Of a stretch of DNA of 64,000 nt, positions 12,289 through 18,736 are shown in pieces. The notes under the pieces were generated by a model, which ran no database searches, had not been told where the DNA came from, and saw nothing but the letters and a program-made list of their open reading frames with translations. Source of the stretch: Sulfurisoma sediminicola (lineage in GTDB: Bacteria > Pseudomonadota > Gammaproteobacteria > Burkholderiales > Rhodocyclaceae). How positions within the stretch are numbered: position 1 is the stretch's first letter; each line of letters opens with the position of its first letter. The translations under genes and the position numbers were made by a program. The DNA is taken from positions 248,001 to 312,000 of the forward strand of contig NZ_BHVV01000001.1 of the NCBI RefSeq assembly GCF_003865015.1, given 5' to 3'.

Positions 12289-14580
12289 ATGACCACCGGA
12301 ATCCGCCCCGTGACGGACGCCCGCAAGCGTCCCATGATGCACCCGCAGGTGCAGACCTACTGGCACGAAGTCGATTGCGGCTTCCCGCCGGTGGCCGACG
12401 TCTTCGAGGAATGCGTCTACGAGGCGCTGGCCGTCTTCTCGCGCGAGCAGATGAAGGCCTACCTCGAGGCGGCGCGCGTGCTGGGCAAGCTCGGCCGCGG
12501 ACCCGAGCCGATGCTGGCCTTCCTCGAGGAATGGCCGAGCGTCGTCACCGCCGTCGGCGCCGACGTGCTGACGCCGGTGATGGACTTCGTGCGGGCGATG
12601 CAGAAGTCGCCCAACGGCAAGGCCATCGCCCCCTTCCTGCAGACGCTGGCCGCCGTGGCCCGCCGCCTGCAGTCGGCCGAGCAGTTGCAGTTCTACATCG
12701 ACATCGCGCGCGACCTGATGGTGCGCACCACCGGCTCCATCCACGGCCACCACACCACCTTCCCGAGCCCGGGGCTGCCGGAGTTCTTCGCCCAGGCCCC
12801 GTTCCTCGCCAAGCTGCTGTCCATGGCGGGCGTGAAAAACTGGGTCGAATACGGCATCCGCAACTACGGCAACCACCCGGAACGGCAGGTCGAGTATTTC
12901 CAGCTCAAGTCGGCCGACAGCCGCGCCGTGCTGCAGCGCGAACGCCACGGCACGCTGTTCGCCGACGTCGAGCGCCAGCTCGACCTCTACCTGCGCGCGC
13001 TGTGGTGCGACAGCGACACGCTGGTGCCCTACTCGACGGCCTTCGACGAGATCCGCAAGCCGATTCCCTATTACGACAAGCTCGGCCTGCGCGTGCCCGA
13101 CGTCTTCGACGATGCGCAGGGCGTGGCGGGGCTGGACCGCTACCGCGCCGTCCTCGCCCATATGATCGGCCACCGCCGCTGGAGCAAGCCGCAGATCGCC
13201 GACAACTGGAGCCCCTTCCAGCGCATGGCGGTGGAGTTCTTCGAGGACTGCCGCATCGAGAACCTGCTGATGCGCGAATACCCGGGCCTGCGCCGCATTT
13301 TCCTCGCGCTGCACCCCAAGCCGGTCGAGGATGCCTGCGATCCCGAGACCACCTCCTGCCTGCGCCACCGCCTCGCCATGCTGTCGCGCGCGCTGATCGA
13401 TCCCGACCACGGCTATGCCGACACGGATCTGCTGACGTTCGCCGGCCGCTTCCATGAATTGATTGCCGCTGGCGAATCCAGCACGGACGAGATTGCCACC
13501 CTCGCGCTCTCCTACGTCGCCAAGACCCGCCGCCAGAGCGACCAGCTGGCCAAGGTGCATTTCGACGACACGGTGGTCGACTACCGCGACGACAATCGCC
13601 AGCTGTGGCGCTTCATCGAGGAGGGCGACGAGGAGGAGGCCTTCGACGAGGAGCGCAGGCTCGAGCAGAACAAGGAGCCGCAGGGCCTGCCGCCGCGCCA
13701 CTACCACGAGTGGGACTACCAGAGCCAGACCTACCGGCCGGACTGGGTCAGCCTCTACGAGGCGCTGCACCCGAGCGGCAACCCCGCGGTCATCGACCGG
13801 CTGCTGGCCAAGCACGCCGCGCTGGCCAAGCGCCTCAAGCGACTGCTCGACCTGCTGAAGCCACAGGACAAGGTGCGCATCCGCTACCAGGAAGACGGCA
13901 CCGAGCTCGACCTCGATGTGGCCATCCGCTCGCTGATCGACTTCAAGGGCGGCGCCACGCCCGATCCGCGCATCAACATGAGCCACCGCACCGACGGCCG
14001 CGACATCACGGTGATGCTGCTGCTCGACCTGTCGGAATCCCTCAACGAGAAGATTGCCGACGGCAGCCAGACGATCCTCGAGCTCAGCCAGGAGGCCGTC
14101 TCGCTGCTGGCCTGGTCGATCGAGGCGCTGGGCGACCCCTTCGCTATCGCCGGCTTCCATTCCGATACCCGCCACGAGGTGCGCTACCACCACATCAAGG
14201 GCTTTTCCGAAGGCTGGGACGACGCCGTGAAGGGGCGGCTGGCGGCGATGGAGGCCGGCTGGTCAACCCGCATGGGCGCGGCCCTGCGCCACGCCGGCCA
14301 CTACCTGTCGGCCCGCAAGGCCGACAAGAAGATCCTGCTGCTGCTGACCGACGGCGAACCGGCCGACATCGACGTCGCCGACCCGCAGCACCTGCGCGCC
14401 GATGCCAAGAAGGCGGTCGAGGAACTGGCGACCAAGGGCGTCACCACCTTCTGCCTCAGCCTCGACCCCAAGGCCGACGAATACGTGCGGGACATTTTCG
14501 GCAACCGCTACGAAGTGCTCGACCGCATCGAGCGGCTGCCCGAGAAGCTGCCGATGCTGTACATGGCGCTGACGAAATAA
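12289..14580 (+). CDS. cbbO: Rubisco activase adaptor CbbO with von Willebrand A domain (form II partner)
   Basis: The 763-residue CbbO paralogue has MIDAS motif DLSES starting near residue 580 and TDGEPADIDVADP further on. Its N-terminal helical part (YWHEVDCGFPPVADVFEEC) differs strongly from CbbO1, in line with a different Rubisco target. The ATG at 12289 follows directly on a dispersed repeat and has no good ribosome site. A later start at Met16 or Met17 (around 12334) cannot be excluded. It is the last CBB gene before the cassette array. Confidence 0.94.
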   Translation: MTTGIRPVTDARKRPMMHPQVQTYWHEVDCGFPPVADVFEECVYEALAVFSREQMKAYLEAARVLGKLGRGPEPMLAFLEEWPSVVTAVGADVLTPVMDFVRAMQKSPNGKAIAPFLQTLAAVARRLQSAEQLQFYIDIARDLMVRTTGSIHGHHTTFPSPGLPEFFAQAPFLAKLLSMAGVKNWVEYGIRNYGNHPERQVEYFQLKSADSRAVLQRERHGTLFADVERQLDLYLRALWCDSDTLVPYSTAFDEIRKPIPYYDKLGLRVPDVFDDAQGVAGLDRYRAVLAHMIGHRRWSKPQIADNWSPFQRMAVEFFEDCRIENLLMREYPGLRRIFLALHPKPVEDACDPETTSCLRHRLAMLSRALIDPDHGYADTDLLTFAGRFHELIAAGESSTDEIATLALSYVAKTRRQSDQLAKVHFDDTVVDYRDDNRQLWRFIEEGDEEEAFDEERRLEQNKEPQGLPPRHYHEWDYQSQTYRPDWVSLYEALHPSGNPAVIDRLLAKHAALAKRLKRLLDLLKPQDKVRIRYQEDGTELDLDVAIRSLIDFKGGATPDPRINMSHRTDGRDITVMLLLDLSESLNEKIADGSQTILELSQEAVSLLAWSIEALGDPFAIAGFHSDTRHEVRYHHIKGFSEGWDDAVKGRLAAMEAGWSTRMGAALRHAGHYLSARKADKKILLLLTDGEPADIDVADPQHLRADAKKAVEELATKGVTTFCLSLDPKADEYVRDIFGNRYEVLDRIERLPEKLPMLYMALTK

Positions 14581-14610: not shown

Positions 14611-14752
14611 CGCCCCTTCCCCGCCGCCCCAGCCCTGCGGGCTTCCCTCGCTCCGGGCCAGCAGTCCGGCCGGCCGCTAAACTTGCTTCGCTCAGACAAC
14701 GCGTCCGGACCCCTCCGGCCCGCCACCCCTCCACTCGGCGCGGCAGAGGGGA
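14611..14752 (+). repeat. Left inverted copy of a repeat of about 140 bp flanking the cassette array
   Basis: The segment contains GCCCTGCGGGCTTCCCTCGC, CAGTCCGGCCGGCCGCTAAA and CTCAGACAACGCG. The reverse complement of 17202-17340 matches it closely along its whole length. It fills most of the 367-bp gap after cbbO2. The rest of that gap (14753-14947) shows only the small GACGCAA palindrome cluster. Confidence 0.8.
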
Positions 14753-14889
14753 AGGCGAAGCGCACAAGCACCCGCCACCGTCCGCCCATGCCCGCTCTTG
14801 TGAAAATGCCGGATACATCTTCTAATGCATCGAACATACTCGAGGGCCGTGTCCGCATGCTGCAATACCCGAGAAAATCGTTCCGTATT

Positions 14890-14916
14890 GACGCAATGTT
14901 TTGCGTCATGACGCAA
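14890..14916. promoter_or_regulatory. GACGCAA inverted and direct repeats upstream of the first cassette
   Basis: GACGCAA (14890-14896) and TTGCGTC (14901-14907) form a perfect 7-bp inverted repeat, and GACGCAA recurs at 14910-14916. It lies 32 bp before the first cassette junction, where an integron would carry its attI site or cassette promoter. TTGACG (14889-14894) could be a -35 element. The assignment is speculative. Confidence 0.35.
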
Positions 14917-14957
14917 TTTCTTCCGTCATTTAGGCGGTCCGCTTCTAGTTAGGCACT

Positions 14958-15584
14958 ATGTCCGTTGCCCCGCATTCCGACGTCGATCTTGTCTTCCTTG
15001 ACCTCCAGGACGCAGTGAAATCTCTGTCTGAGTCTCGTGCATCGCCAAAGGAGATTCGCCGAGCGCTTTCGCGTTACATCGAACTGAGTCAGCGGCTCAC
15101 TGCCACGATGAGAAAGGACTACAGTAAGCGATGCAAGGGCAAATGGGAGGCCTCCTCGTTCGTTGGCTGGAACCCTAGAACGGAGCTACTCAAGTACTTG
15201 CGGAATCAAGATCAGCATGGTGAGCAGGTCTTCATCACAGTTCACGATCGACACTTCTACGACGTTCCGGATGACGTTGAAATTGGCGGGATTCCGGGCA
15301 GGCAATTCGTGGTGGATGGCCACTGGCAGATGACTGACCAAACTCTTGACCGGCAACCGGAGGGTCTAGAGGTCGGACTTGGAGGCCCGGGCGTACCGTA
15401 TGAATCAACAGAGATACTCAAGCCCACTCGTACCGAGAGTTCCTATGTTCTGTTCCCGCGGAAACCCGAGGATCAAAGCAGATTTCAAGCCGCAGCTGTT
15501 AGCGATGTTCATGAGTTCGCACGCGACACGCTTGCGACCCTGACAGAGTACTTTGAATTTTACAAGGCAAAGGTTGGAGCCTAA
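14958..15584 (+). CDS. Cassette 1 hypothetical protein
   Basis: The 208-residue soluble protein is of a family I do not recognise. It has a helical N terminus (LDLQDAVKSLSESRASPKEI) and a central segment with HDRHFYDVPDDVEIGG. It has no signal peptide or membrane segment. The ATG lies only 9 bp into the cassette and its stop codon TAA falls inside the attC left core GCCTAAC, both typical of integron cassettes. Codon use has many A/T-ending codons, unlike the CBB genes around it, which indicates horizontal acquisition. Confidence 0.8.
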   Translation: MSVAPHSDVDLVFLDLQDAVKSLSESRASPKEIRRALSRYIELSQRLTATMRKDYSKRCKGKWEASSFVGWNPRTELLKYLRNQDQHGEQVFITVHDRHFYDVPDDVEIGGIPGRQFVVDGHWQMTDQTLDRQPEGLEVGLGGPGVPYESTEILKPTRTESSYVLFPRKPEDQSRFQAAAVSDVHEFARDTLATLTEYFEFYKAKVGA

Positions 15585-15669
15585 CAGTTAGTTCGCTCAA
15601 CCTCGCTCCCTTCGGTCGCTGGACGCTGCGCGGTAAAGCTGCGCAGCGCCGGGTAGTTCTACGTTGGGG
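15579..15669 (+). repeat. attC site of cassette 1
   Basis: The left core is GCCTAAC (15579-15585) and the right core GTTGGGG (15663-15669), with the crossover expected after G15663. The central stem is CGCTGCGC paired with GCGCAGCG around GGTAAAGCT. The left core is complementary to GTTAGGC at 14948-14954, the start of cassette 1. Confidence 0.85.
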
Positions 15670-15736
15670 GTTTCCATTTCCACACCAGCGGCCGTCTTGG
15701 TTTTTCTCATTGCTCAACTCCTACCGGTAGATAATC

Positions 15737-15949
15737 ATGGCCAATGAATTTGGTTCCACTGAAGGCGCCCATTTCATCACTTCCTTTCGAGCTTTCGCTC
15801 ACGACAACGGAATGCCAGGGGTTCGTCTGAAAAAAGATGACGGCTCTTTTGTTGATGTTGTGTTTTCGGTTCCCGGTATTCAGGAGCTACAAACACAACT
15901 CGTCCTGGCGCTACATCTGGTCGAGAAGACTTCCGGCGCACAGCATTAG
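15737..15949 (+). CDS. Cassette 2 small hypothetical protein
   Basis: The 70-residue protein (MANEFGSTEGAHFITSF...) has no recognised domain, signal peptide or membrane helix. It lies 73 bp into cassette 2 and ends 14 bp before the attC2 left core. Its lower GC matches the other cassettes. It is the only open frame that fills the cassette on the + strand. Function is unknown. Confidence 0.65.
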   Translation: MANEFGSTEGAHFITSFRAFAHDNGMPGVRLKKDDGSFVDVVFSVPGIQELQTQLVLALHLVEKTSGAQH

Positions 15950-15963
15950 TCATGGCTCCACAC

Positions 15964-16052
15964 CCCCAACCCGGCGCTCGACCCCGTTCGCTTCGCTCTC
16001 TGGACTCACGGGCGATGAACCCGCCCGTGAGCCGGCTGGCTCTACGTTAGGT
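15964..16052 (+). repeat. attC site of cassette 2
   Basis: The left core is CCCCAAC (15964-15970) and the right core GTTAGGT (16046-16052). A perfect 9-bp stem CTCACGGGC/GCCCGTGAG sits in the middle. The extended left core ACCCCCAAC is the exact reverse complement of GTTGGGGGT at 15663-15671, the beginning of cassette 2. Confidence 0.9.
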
Positions 16053-16060
16053 TGCACAAA

Positions 16061-17050
16061 ATGCCCTCGTCCCACCAGCTGTTTTGCTACGCGATTGCAG
16101 GTGCGATGCTGCTTGGAGCATGCCATCAAAGTGCAGCCGACCCACCGGCATCGACAAAAGCAAATATTTCAGACCACCGCGAGTCAGATGTAATAGCGCA
16201 GTCGCAGCCCTTGGTCTCGGGGGCTGCATCGCTGAGTTGCGACTACGACTATCAGGGTCGGACTGATCGCATTCTGAACTCGATCAACAGTGACGAGATT
16301 CGAAAACTCGTTCGTGATTGCGTCAACGCGGGTAGGAACATGGTGCATCTCTACTATAAGGGCGCGATTGGAAGTGACCTTAAGCCACTTTTGCTTGCAC
16401 TTCACCAAGTGTTGTCCGACGAAGGAATACGCACTCGGATCTTCGAGATTGACTCATCGGGAGGCGACGTAGATGCAACCATGGCTACTGGCGAAGAACT
16501 CTCCAACGGCAACTGGGCCGTGTGGGTCAATCGCGAAGCGCGCTGCTACAGCGCCTGCGTCTTGCTCCTCGCAGCAGGCACTCATCGCTCCATTAGCGGG
16601 CAAGTTGGAATCCACCGGATGTTGAATCCAAAGTCCCGGGCGAGAACACCGGCAGAGTTACAAGTCGAACTTGAGTCGCGCCTCAACGCCGTGAAGAACT
16701 ATCTGACTAGGTACGGCGCGAATCCAGCGCTCGCTGACCTGATGATGACGATACCCTCGAGAGAAATTCGCGTGCTGAGCCAAGCCGAACTCGATCATTT
16801 CGGCCTTAATGGCAAGAACTCAGTGAAGGCCGACCTCGCTCGTCTGGATGTGGCCAGACGTTGCGGCGATGACTTCGTACAAAGGTGGGACGAGTACGGC
16901 CAGGCTATCAAGAGTTGCTCGATGTCCGGAAAGCAGGGCCTAGAAGACAAACGAAACTTCGTTGCGTGTATGAACCGAATCCATGATCGATTGGGCTTTC
17001 CTGACTCGAAGTGTCCCAACGACGGGCCTCTCCGTTTGCCAGCACCGTAG
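16061..17050 (+). CDS. Cassette 3 lipoprotein with ClpP/crotonase-like periplasmic protease fold
   Basis: The 329-residue product begins with a lipoprotein signal peptide ending in the lipobox LLGAC (Cys near residue 20). A ClpP/SppA-like domain follows at about residues 80-240: EIDSSGGDVDATMATGEEL, then CYSACVLLLAAGTHR with the candidate serine nucleophile, then GQVGIHRML. This resembles predicted periplasmic proteins of the COG3904 type. It may be an outer-envelope protease or a catalytically altered relative. The ATG at 16061 lies 14 bp into the cassette; TTG at 16052 is an alternative start. It is the largest cassette gene. Confidence 0.8.
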   Translation: MPSSHQLFCYAIAGAMLLGACHQSAADPPASTKANISDHRESDVIAQSQPLVSGAASLSCDYDYQGRTDRILNSINSDEIRKLVRDCVNAGRNMVHLYYKGAIGSDLKPLLLALHQVLSDEGIRTRIFEIDSSGGDVDATMATGEELSNGNWAVWVNREARCYSACVLLLAAGTHRSISGQVGIHRMLNPKSRARTPAELQVELESRLNAVKNYLTRYGANPALADLMMTIPSREIRVLSQAELDHFGLNGKNSVKADLARLDVARRCGDDFVQRWDEYGQAIKSCSMSGKQGLEDKRNFVACMNRIHDRLGFPDSKCPNDGPLRLPAP

Positions 17051-17077
17051 AGCGGCTTTTTGTGGAAGGGCAGTGCA

Positions 17078-17148
17078 ACCTAACCCCCCAGGTTCGAGCC
17101 GACAGTTCCCGGCGTATCGTGGTCTGCGGCTCAACTCAAACGTTGAAC
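17078..17148 (+). repeat. attC site of cassette 3
   Basis: The left core is ACCTAAC (17078-17084) and the right core GTTGAAC (17142-17148). The inner pair GAGCCG (17096-17101) and CGGCTC (17127-17132) forms the stem, followed by the common AACTCAAACG spacing. Twelve bases GTGCAACCTAAC (17073-17084) are the exact reverse complement of the start of cassette 3. This is the most canonical of the three sites. Confidence 0.92.
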
Positions 17149-17201: not shown

Positions 17202-17340
17202 TCCCCTCTGCCCCGCCGAGCGGAGGGCTGTCGGGCCGGGGATGTCCGGCCGCGTTGTCTGAGCCGAAGGCGAGTTTAGCGGCCGGCCGGACTGACGGCC
17301 CGGAGCGAGGGTAGCCCGCAGGGCCGGGGCAGCGGGGCGC
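17202..17340 (-). repeat. Right inverted copy of the flanking repeat of about 140 bp
   Basis: The segment holds CGCGTTGTCTGAGCCGAAGG, TTTAGCGGCCGGCCGGACTG and CGGAGCGAGGGTAGCCCGCA. Read in reverse complement it parallels 14611-14752. The two copies enclose the cassette array. It occupies part of the 663-bp non-coding stretch 17051-17713, which also holds attC3, a perfect palindrome, a short repeat, the fbp operator and a leader hairpin. Confidence 0.8.
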
Positions 17341-17350
17341 GTTTCTTTGG

Positions 17351-17398
17351 GTACTTTCTTGCCGCGCGGCAAGAAAGTACCTCGCCCGCCGGGGCGAG
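17351..17398. repeat. Perfect 30-bp palindrome followed by a second hairpin
   Basis: GTACTTTCTTGCCGC (17351-17365) is followed with no loop by its exact reverse complement (17366-17380). Directly after it lies CTCGCCC-GCCG-GGGCGAG (17381-17398). A degraded copy of the second hairpin with its right flank lies at 42619-42642 after the ubiH-like gene. This looks like the end of a dispersed repetitive element. Confidence 0.85.
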
Positions 17399-17421
17399 AC
17401 CCGGCAACCGCCAACGCCCAT

Positions 17422-17447: not shown

Positions 17448-17485
17448 GATACCCGCCCGGCATGGTGCACAGCAATAATAGAAGG

Positions 17486-17525
17486 CTTATTCTCACGATA
17501 AGAAAAAGTGAATGGCGCTTATGGT
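17486..17525. promoter_or_regulatory. Putative CbbR2 operator, copy 2 (fbp unit)
   Basis: The site reads CTTAT-N5-CGATAAGAA-N13-CTTATGGT, identical in all fixed positions and both spacers to 8991-9030, although the spacer bases differ. It lies about 190 bp before the fbp start codon. It should place cbbF-cbbP under the same LysR regulator as cbbY-cbbM. This is inferred from sequence only. Confidence 0.7.
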
Positions 17526-17608
17526 CAAGCCCCGCTAAATTCCCTCCGTCGGATCGGGGTTTCCCGATCCACGCTTCTCCACTCCCTCTGGCGTAACAGC
17601 CAGTTTGA

Positions 17609-17646
17609 CCCCGCCCCCCGTGCAACCCCGGGGGCGGGGATTTTCT
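17609..17646 (+). terminator. GC-rich hairpin with T-run in the fbp leader
   Basis: CCCCGCCCCC (17609-17618) pairs with GGGGGCGGGG (17630-17639), followed by ATTTTCTT. It sits between the putative operator and fbp, so it could attenuate the fbp transcript or end a short transcript coming from the repeat region. Confidence 0.6.
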
Positions 17647-17713
17647 TCTGGGCGAGTGCGACGGCGTGGTCTACCGGCAAAAAAACAGAACACGAAAAGG
17701 AAGGACAGCATTC

Positions 17714-18736
<1,023 letters not shown>

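Follow-up and report, generated by a model that had tools for sequence, protein, structure and literature searches.

The 64,000-nucleotide stretch of DNA analysed here, hereafter the window, carries in its Calvin-cycle (CBB) locus what is probably a decapitated chromosomal integron, made up of an intI remnant, an attI site, three cassettes and a terminal segment, and enclosed as cargo by a pair of inverted repeat arms. Direct support comes from the attI and attC sites, the arms, an empty gap at the same place in a genome of the same genus (G001), an intact IntI at another locus of the genome studied here, and additional attI-bearing arrays without intI.

The genome comprises 2.995 Mb in 8 contigs and is 99.99% complete. 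The array lies between cbbO (12289-14580) upstream and fbp (17714-18736) downstream, where a preliminary description of this DNA had placed it. NCBIfam matches identified fbp, form II RuBisCO, prk and tkt in the window; it gave no match for cbbQ and cbbO, which were named from their position and their homology to the loci of relatives. The closest cbbO among relatives was on a Sulfurisoma sp. contig (86%), and the named relatives are Rhodocyclaceae. The GC content of 0.54-0.56 in the array, compared with ~0.65 in the surroundings, bears out the foreign composition that had been claimed. In G001, only ~34 bp separate the cbbO stop from the match of window position 17462, and the 2.9-kb module is absent. 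In another Sulfurisoma (L041, 4312-4593), a type A arm directly follows the cbbO stop, and its inner edge adjoins the 3' end of a group II intron (Rfam E 1e-8). Taken together, these two genomes indicate either repeated targeting of the cbbO-fbp site or an arm pair there with changing cargo.

Table 1. Features of the integrase-less array and its flanks (window coordinates)
Feature	Position	Strand	Description
Left repeat arm, type A	14619-14752	-	134 bp, outer ~70 bp missing; profile E 7e-30
intI 5' coding-region remnant (probable)	14795-14869	-	nhmmer 11.4 bits; equalled by 0 of 2000 shuffles
attI	14908-14953	+	Crossover G|TT at 14948/14949; profile E 5.5e-8
Cassette 1	14949-15663	+	ORF 14958-15584, 208-aa protein of no recognised family
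attC 1	15579-15669	+	18-nt insert in L'' arm; CM E 3.6e-7
Cassette 2	15664-16046	+	ORF 15737-15949, 70-aa protein of no recognised family
attC 2	15962-16052	+	Same 18-nt insert type; CM E 0.31
Cassette 3	16047-17142	+	ORF from 16052 or 16061 to 17050
attC 3	17073-17148	+	12-bp R'' extension GTGCAACCTAAC; CM E 7.7e-6
Terminal segment	17142-17187	+	After last attC; 94% over 46-48 bp to L231, L230
Right repeat arm, type A	17202-17407	+	206 bp, full length; profile E 8e-63

Reading of the sequence agreed with the preliminary description in finding three cassettes, each with one plus-strand ORF and an attC site at its end. An attC covariance model (CM) was built from 13 intI-linked attC sites of related genomes with the window held out, and 7 of the 10 pairs in its helix 2 had both-sided changes. 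It matched all three sites, at 15595-15669, 17078-17148 and 15964-16052 (E-values in Table 1), with no further match up to E=10 in the 64-kb window. An 18-nt insert in the L'' arm makes the match at 15595-15669 overshoot the true R'' (15579-15585). This insert, placed between ACC and GGAC in both attC 1 and attC 2, accounts for the imperfect fit of the two sites to the model. That of attC 2 was found nearly letter for letter in attC sites of another genus (L149) and of another array in the same genome (L233), indicating a recurrent attC subtype. For attC 1, the R'' sequence GCCTAAC is the reverse complement of the start of cassette 1, and direct reading gave cassette-start/R'' identities of 7, 9, and 12 bp, whose joint chance is ~7e-9 given the GTT/AAC and purine/pyrimidine consensus. 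The match on which the preliminary description had leaned is therefore real, but it is a normal property of any integron cassette and nothing special here. Folding of the bottom strands gave z values from -0.25 (attC 1) to -1.9, which are weak evidence on their own, and no Rfam family was above threshold for the attC sites or the arms.

The cassette 1 protein matched nothing in Pfam, NCBIfam or PADLOC, and no homologue was present among 200 genomes of the family or in plasmids. By eye, the cassette 3 product is likely an exported, ClpP/crotonase-like protein. Three genomes, all of one other family, have homologues at 36-39%, and a Xanthomonas plasmid has one at 42%; a search around the genome homologues found no attC. 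In the arrays L230 and L231 of the same genome, the counterparts of the terminal segment stand directly behind the terminal attC, and two genomes of another genus have related segments behind their last attC. In the latter (L295 and L296, near 1501, of G014 and G100), the segment reads GTTGAACGTCTGCTTTC directly behind the attC; G014 had no intI above the cut-off.

An attI profile made from seven intI-linked attI sites, again without the window, gave the site in Table 1 as its sole strong match in 64 kb, and in nucleotide comparison with loci of the family, 14889-14963 resembled the attI regions of family integrons. Thus, of the parts of a complete integron, attI is present in the window and intI is not. 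To the left of attI, the minus strand probably holds a remnant from close to the 5' end of the intI coding region, where by eye LQHADTALEYVRCIRRCIRHFHKSGHG can be set against IntI LKHYS.RTE.AYVDWI.RFIR..GKRHP. The profile scores of this short piece were low at the DNA level and at the protein level (5 to 6.6 bits), with a protein-level E-value of only 0.6 over the whole window; none of 2000 dinucleotide shuffles reached the real score at either level. The similarity stops at the left repeat arm. A simple consensus scan for a Pc promoter gave no sigma-70-like site. Its own attI and the probable intI remnant suggest that an integron, whole or in part, came in and that its integrase was lost. This runs against the earlier view of the CBB locus as a landing site for cassettes.

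The left arm is an inverted copy of the right one (88% identity to 17202-17337), and the outer terminus of the arm is GGGGCGAGACCCGGCAA. The unit is thus bounded, as in MITE- or TIME-bounded integron units, by two short non-coding repeat copies, here inverted; since the left arm is truncated, the window unit may be dead. Type A copies occurred in 18 of the 61 genomes searched, often as inverted pairs. In relatives, such pairs were 0.2-6 kb apart at many unrelated loci and enclosed unrelated cargo, including a BrnT toxin-antitoxin, a TIR-domain protein and an Mrr-type nuclease. Two more arm families bracket arrays, type B around L231 and type C around L246.

We then asked how often arms and integron sites coincide. 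Across five genomes, 8 of 28 repeat units were within 2.5 kb of an attC, compared with 0.34 expected (P 3e-9); attC was absent from the neighbourhood of the other 20, which shows that these repeats are not specific to integrons. An arm of one of the three families stood in the retrieved flanks of 12 of 21 integrase-less clusters (three genomes) versus 0 of 30 intI loci (Fisher P 2e-6), in a comparison where flank lengths differed (up to 1.5 kb for intI loci) and some intI contigs were short. Six of these 12 clusters had arms on both sides, and nine of the 21, L230 and L233 included, had no arm. In three attI arrays from two genera, an arm was located ~0.25 kb or nearer to attI on the intI side, namely in L241 (type C), L245 (type B) and the window (type A). 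There was no direct repeat at the outer arm ends of the units read and no transposase inside the repeat units examined, so movement by transposition is put forward as a hypothesis. A search for arms on plasmids gave two partial matches only.

Inverted repeat pairs at six loci (L180, L181, L182, L184, L185, and L194) enclose small accessory gene sets with GC below the surroundings. Their cargo includes TIR, Mrr-type nuclease and BrnT by Pfam, and DnaJ-like and cyclase-like proteins by eye, and these pairs are possibly a general small-island system. In another genome (G030, L187-L191), six compact units of ~700 bp have arms and an inner GTCATTCCCGCGAAAGCGGGAATCCAG repeat, which resembles the neisserial dRS3. 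These units were considered as a clean MITE, a reading that we rejected, as the arms are unlike each other and other repeats are enclosed.

The statement that no integrase is visible holds for the window; in the genome, however, a single IntI was above the cut-off (485.7 bits), on contig C6, and the window sits on C1 (248001-312000). It is intact, with a 355-aa open frame and integrase and SAM-like domains, and its locus has its own attI and one cassette that ends in an attC and encodes, by eye, a RelBE-like pair. The preliminary description had proposed to look for an intI elsewhere with matching attC sites. A whole-genome search with the attC model gave further clusters on C8, C2 and C6. Three more arrays (L230, L231, and L233) have attI without intI, so that a family-specific attI model found attI in 4 of the 6 integrase-less arrays of this genome. 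L230 and L231 hold different cassettes but agree at both ends, in a 238-bp 5' segment (95%) and a terminal segment of 47 bp (96%), which looks like a platform duplication inside one genome. Among 200 genomes of the family, the full 238-bp segment was present in this genome only. Identity to the resident attI is 90% for the attI of L230/L231 and only 60% for that of the window. When L230 6080-6315 was compared with L231 4329-4566, the attI sites were identical (42 bp compared) and the 5' segments 95% alike. We also considered the 5' and 3' segments of the two arrays as terminal inverted repeats and rejected this, as 16 and 28 of 300 shuffles were as good.

How the array arose can be read in several ways. 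It is hardly credible that hairpins arising by chance in foreign DNA account for its attC and attI signals: the fold energy of attC 1 is indeed unremarkable, but independent CM and profile matches, the R''/start identities and the recurrent attC subtype speak against it, as do the genome-wide clusters of CM matches. It is also improbable that the resident IntI inserted the cassettes singly at an attG-like GTT site of the CBB locus that belonged to no integron. A resident IntI exists, the attC sites look usable, and insertion at attG sites is on record (PMC12444791). However, a family-type attI adjoins cassette 1 with the intI remnant upstream, the terminal segment is common to two other arrays, and the G001 gap holds nothing of the 2.9 kb; the attI in particular largely refutes this reading.

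A stronger rival, although still rather unlikely, is that an integron arrived by general recombination and decayed in situ with deletion of intI, the repeats being unrelated intergenic ones that gather around foreign DNA. It is in line with the proposal that CALINs are degraded integrons (PMC9024848), and it accommodates the arms that flank non-cassette cargo and the lack of a target-site duplication. Against it, unrelated cargo is enclosed by arms in inverted pairs, the arms accompany integrase-less arrays and not intI loci in the counts above, and the three arrays with an arm close to attI on the intI side each involve a different arm family. We therefore favor an arm-bounded integron. Under it, an integron would have been captured between arms and its intI severed at the left arm, and the arm-bounded unit, not single cassettes, would have entered or been exchanged at the CBB locus. 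Homologous recombination between arms might have driven this movement, or else a transposase provided in trans. The resident IntI could still excise, and perhaps insert, cassettes in trans, which is more plausible at L230/L231 than at the window, given the similarity of their attI sites to the resident one. A wider proposal, in which paired inverted repeats from several families act as a mobile-unit system, pick up segments of attI and cassettes that lack intI and distribute them over the chromosome, with one resident IntI serving several platforms in trans, is tentative, and we regard it as doubtful at present.

In the terms of IntegronFinder, a CALIN is an attC cluster without an integron integrase, and surveys find arrays without integrase about as often as complete integrons (PMC9024848). 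The window array is like a CALIN in having at least two CM-recognised attC sites (two at E <1e-5 and one weak), no intI nearby and few cassettes, but it differs in retaining attI and a probable 5' remnant of intI. IntegronFinder does not detect attI outside class 1 (PMC9024848), and arrays like this one would therefore be listed as CALIN only. About half of Xanthomonas genomes have CALINs away from the intI locus, and a functional IntI can mobilise CALINs in trans (PMC12444791). The genome studied here is similar in that several integrase-less arrays lie away from one intI locus, whereas attI or flanking inverted repeats are not described for the Xanthomonas CALINs in the passages of that report consulted. 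Class 1 integrons of Acinetobacter are bounded by a 439-bp MITE and truncated at it (PMC3934969), and integron mobilization unit (IMU)/TIME-COMP structures occur in Enterobacteriaceae (PMC13367494). The window shares with these the short non-coding repeats at both ends and the truncation at a repeat. However, the known cases are mostly on plasmids, with resistance cassettes, identical or near-identical repeats and 5-bp direct repeats, whereas the window unit is chromosomal and environmental, with arms 88% alike, no direct repeats and no transposon relationship found in the units examined. Thus, neither the CALIN as a degraded integron nor the MITE-bounded integron on a plasmid is new, but attI-bearing arrays in a chromosome, with arms of several repeat families at their sides, appear to be a new variant. 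The origin of integrase-less arrays is mostly guesswork; the arms suggest a concrete scattering route that can be tested. Surveys that ignore attI outside class 1 overlook integrase-less arrays in which the docking site is retained.

Two minor observations concern the CBB locus itself. The region before fbp (window 17462-17669) is conserved in Rhodocyclaceae, at 82% to G001 and about 70-74% to L096 and L059. It contains a GC-rich hairpin with a T-rich stretch behind it and has a sub-threshold anti-hemB match in Rfam, and is a possible candidate for a cbb regulatory leader. A Hydrogenophilales genome has, ~80 bp past cbbO and on the opposite strand, a diverged version of the terminal segment (L108, 4818-4860), which adjoins an ORF that is GIY-YIG-like by eye.
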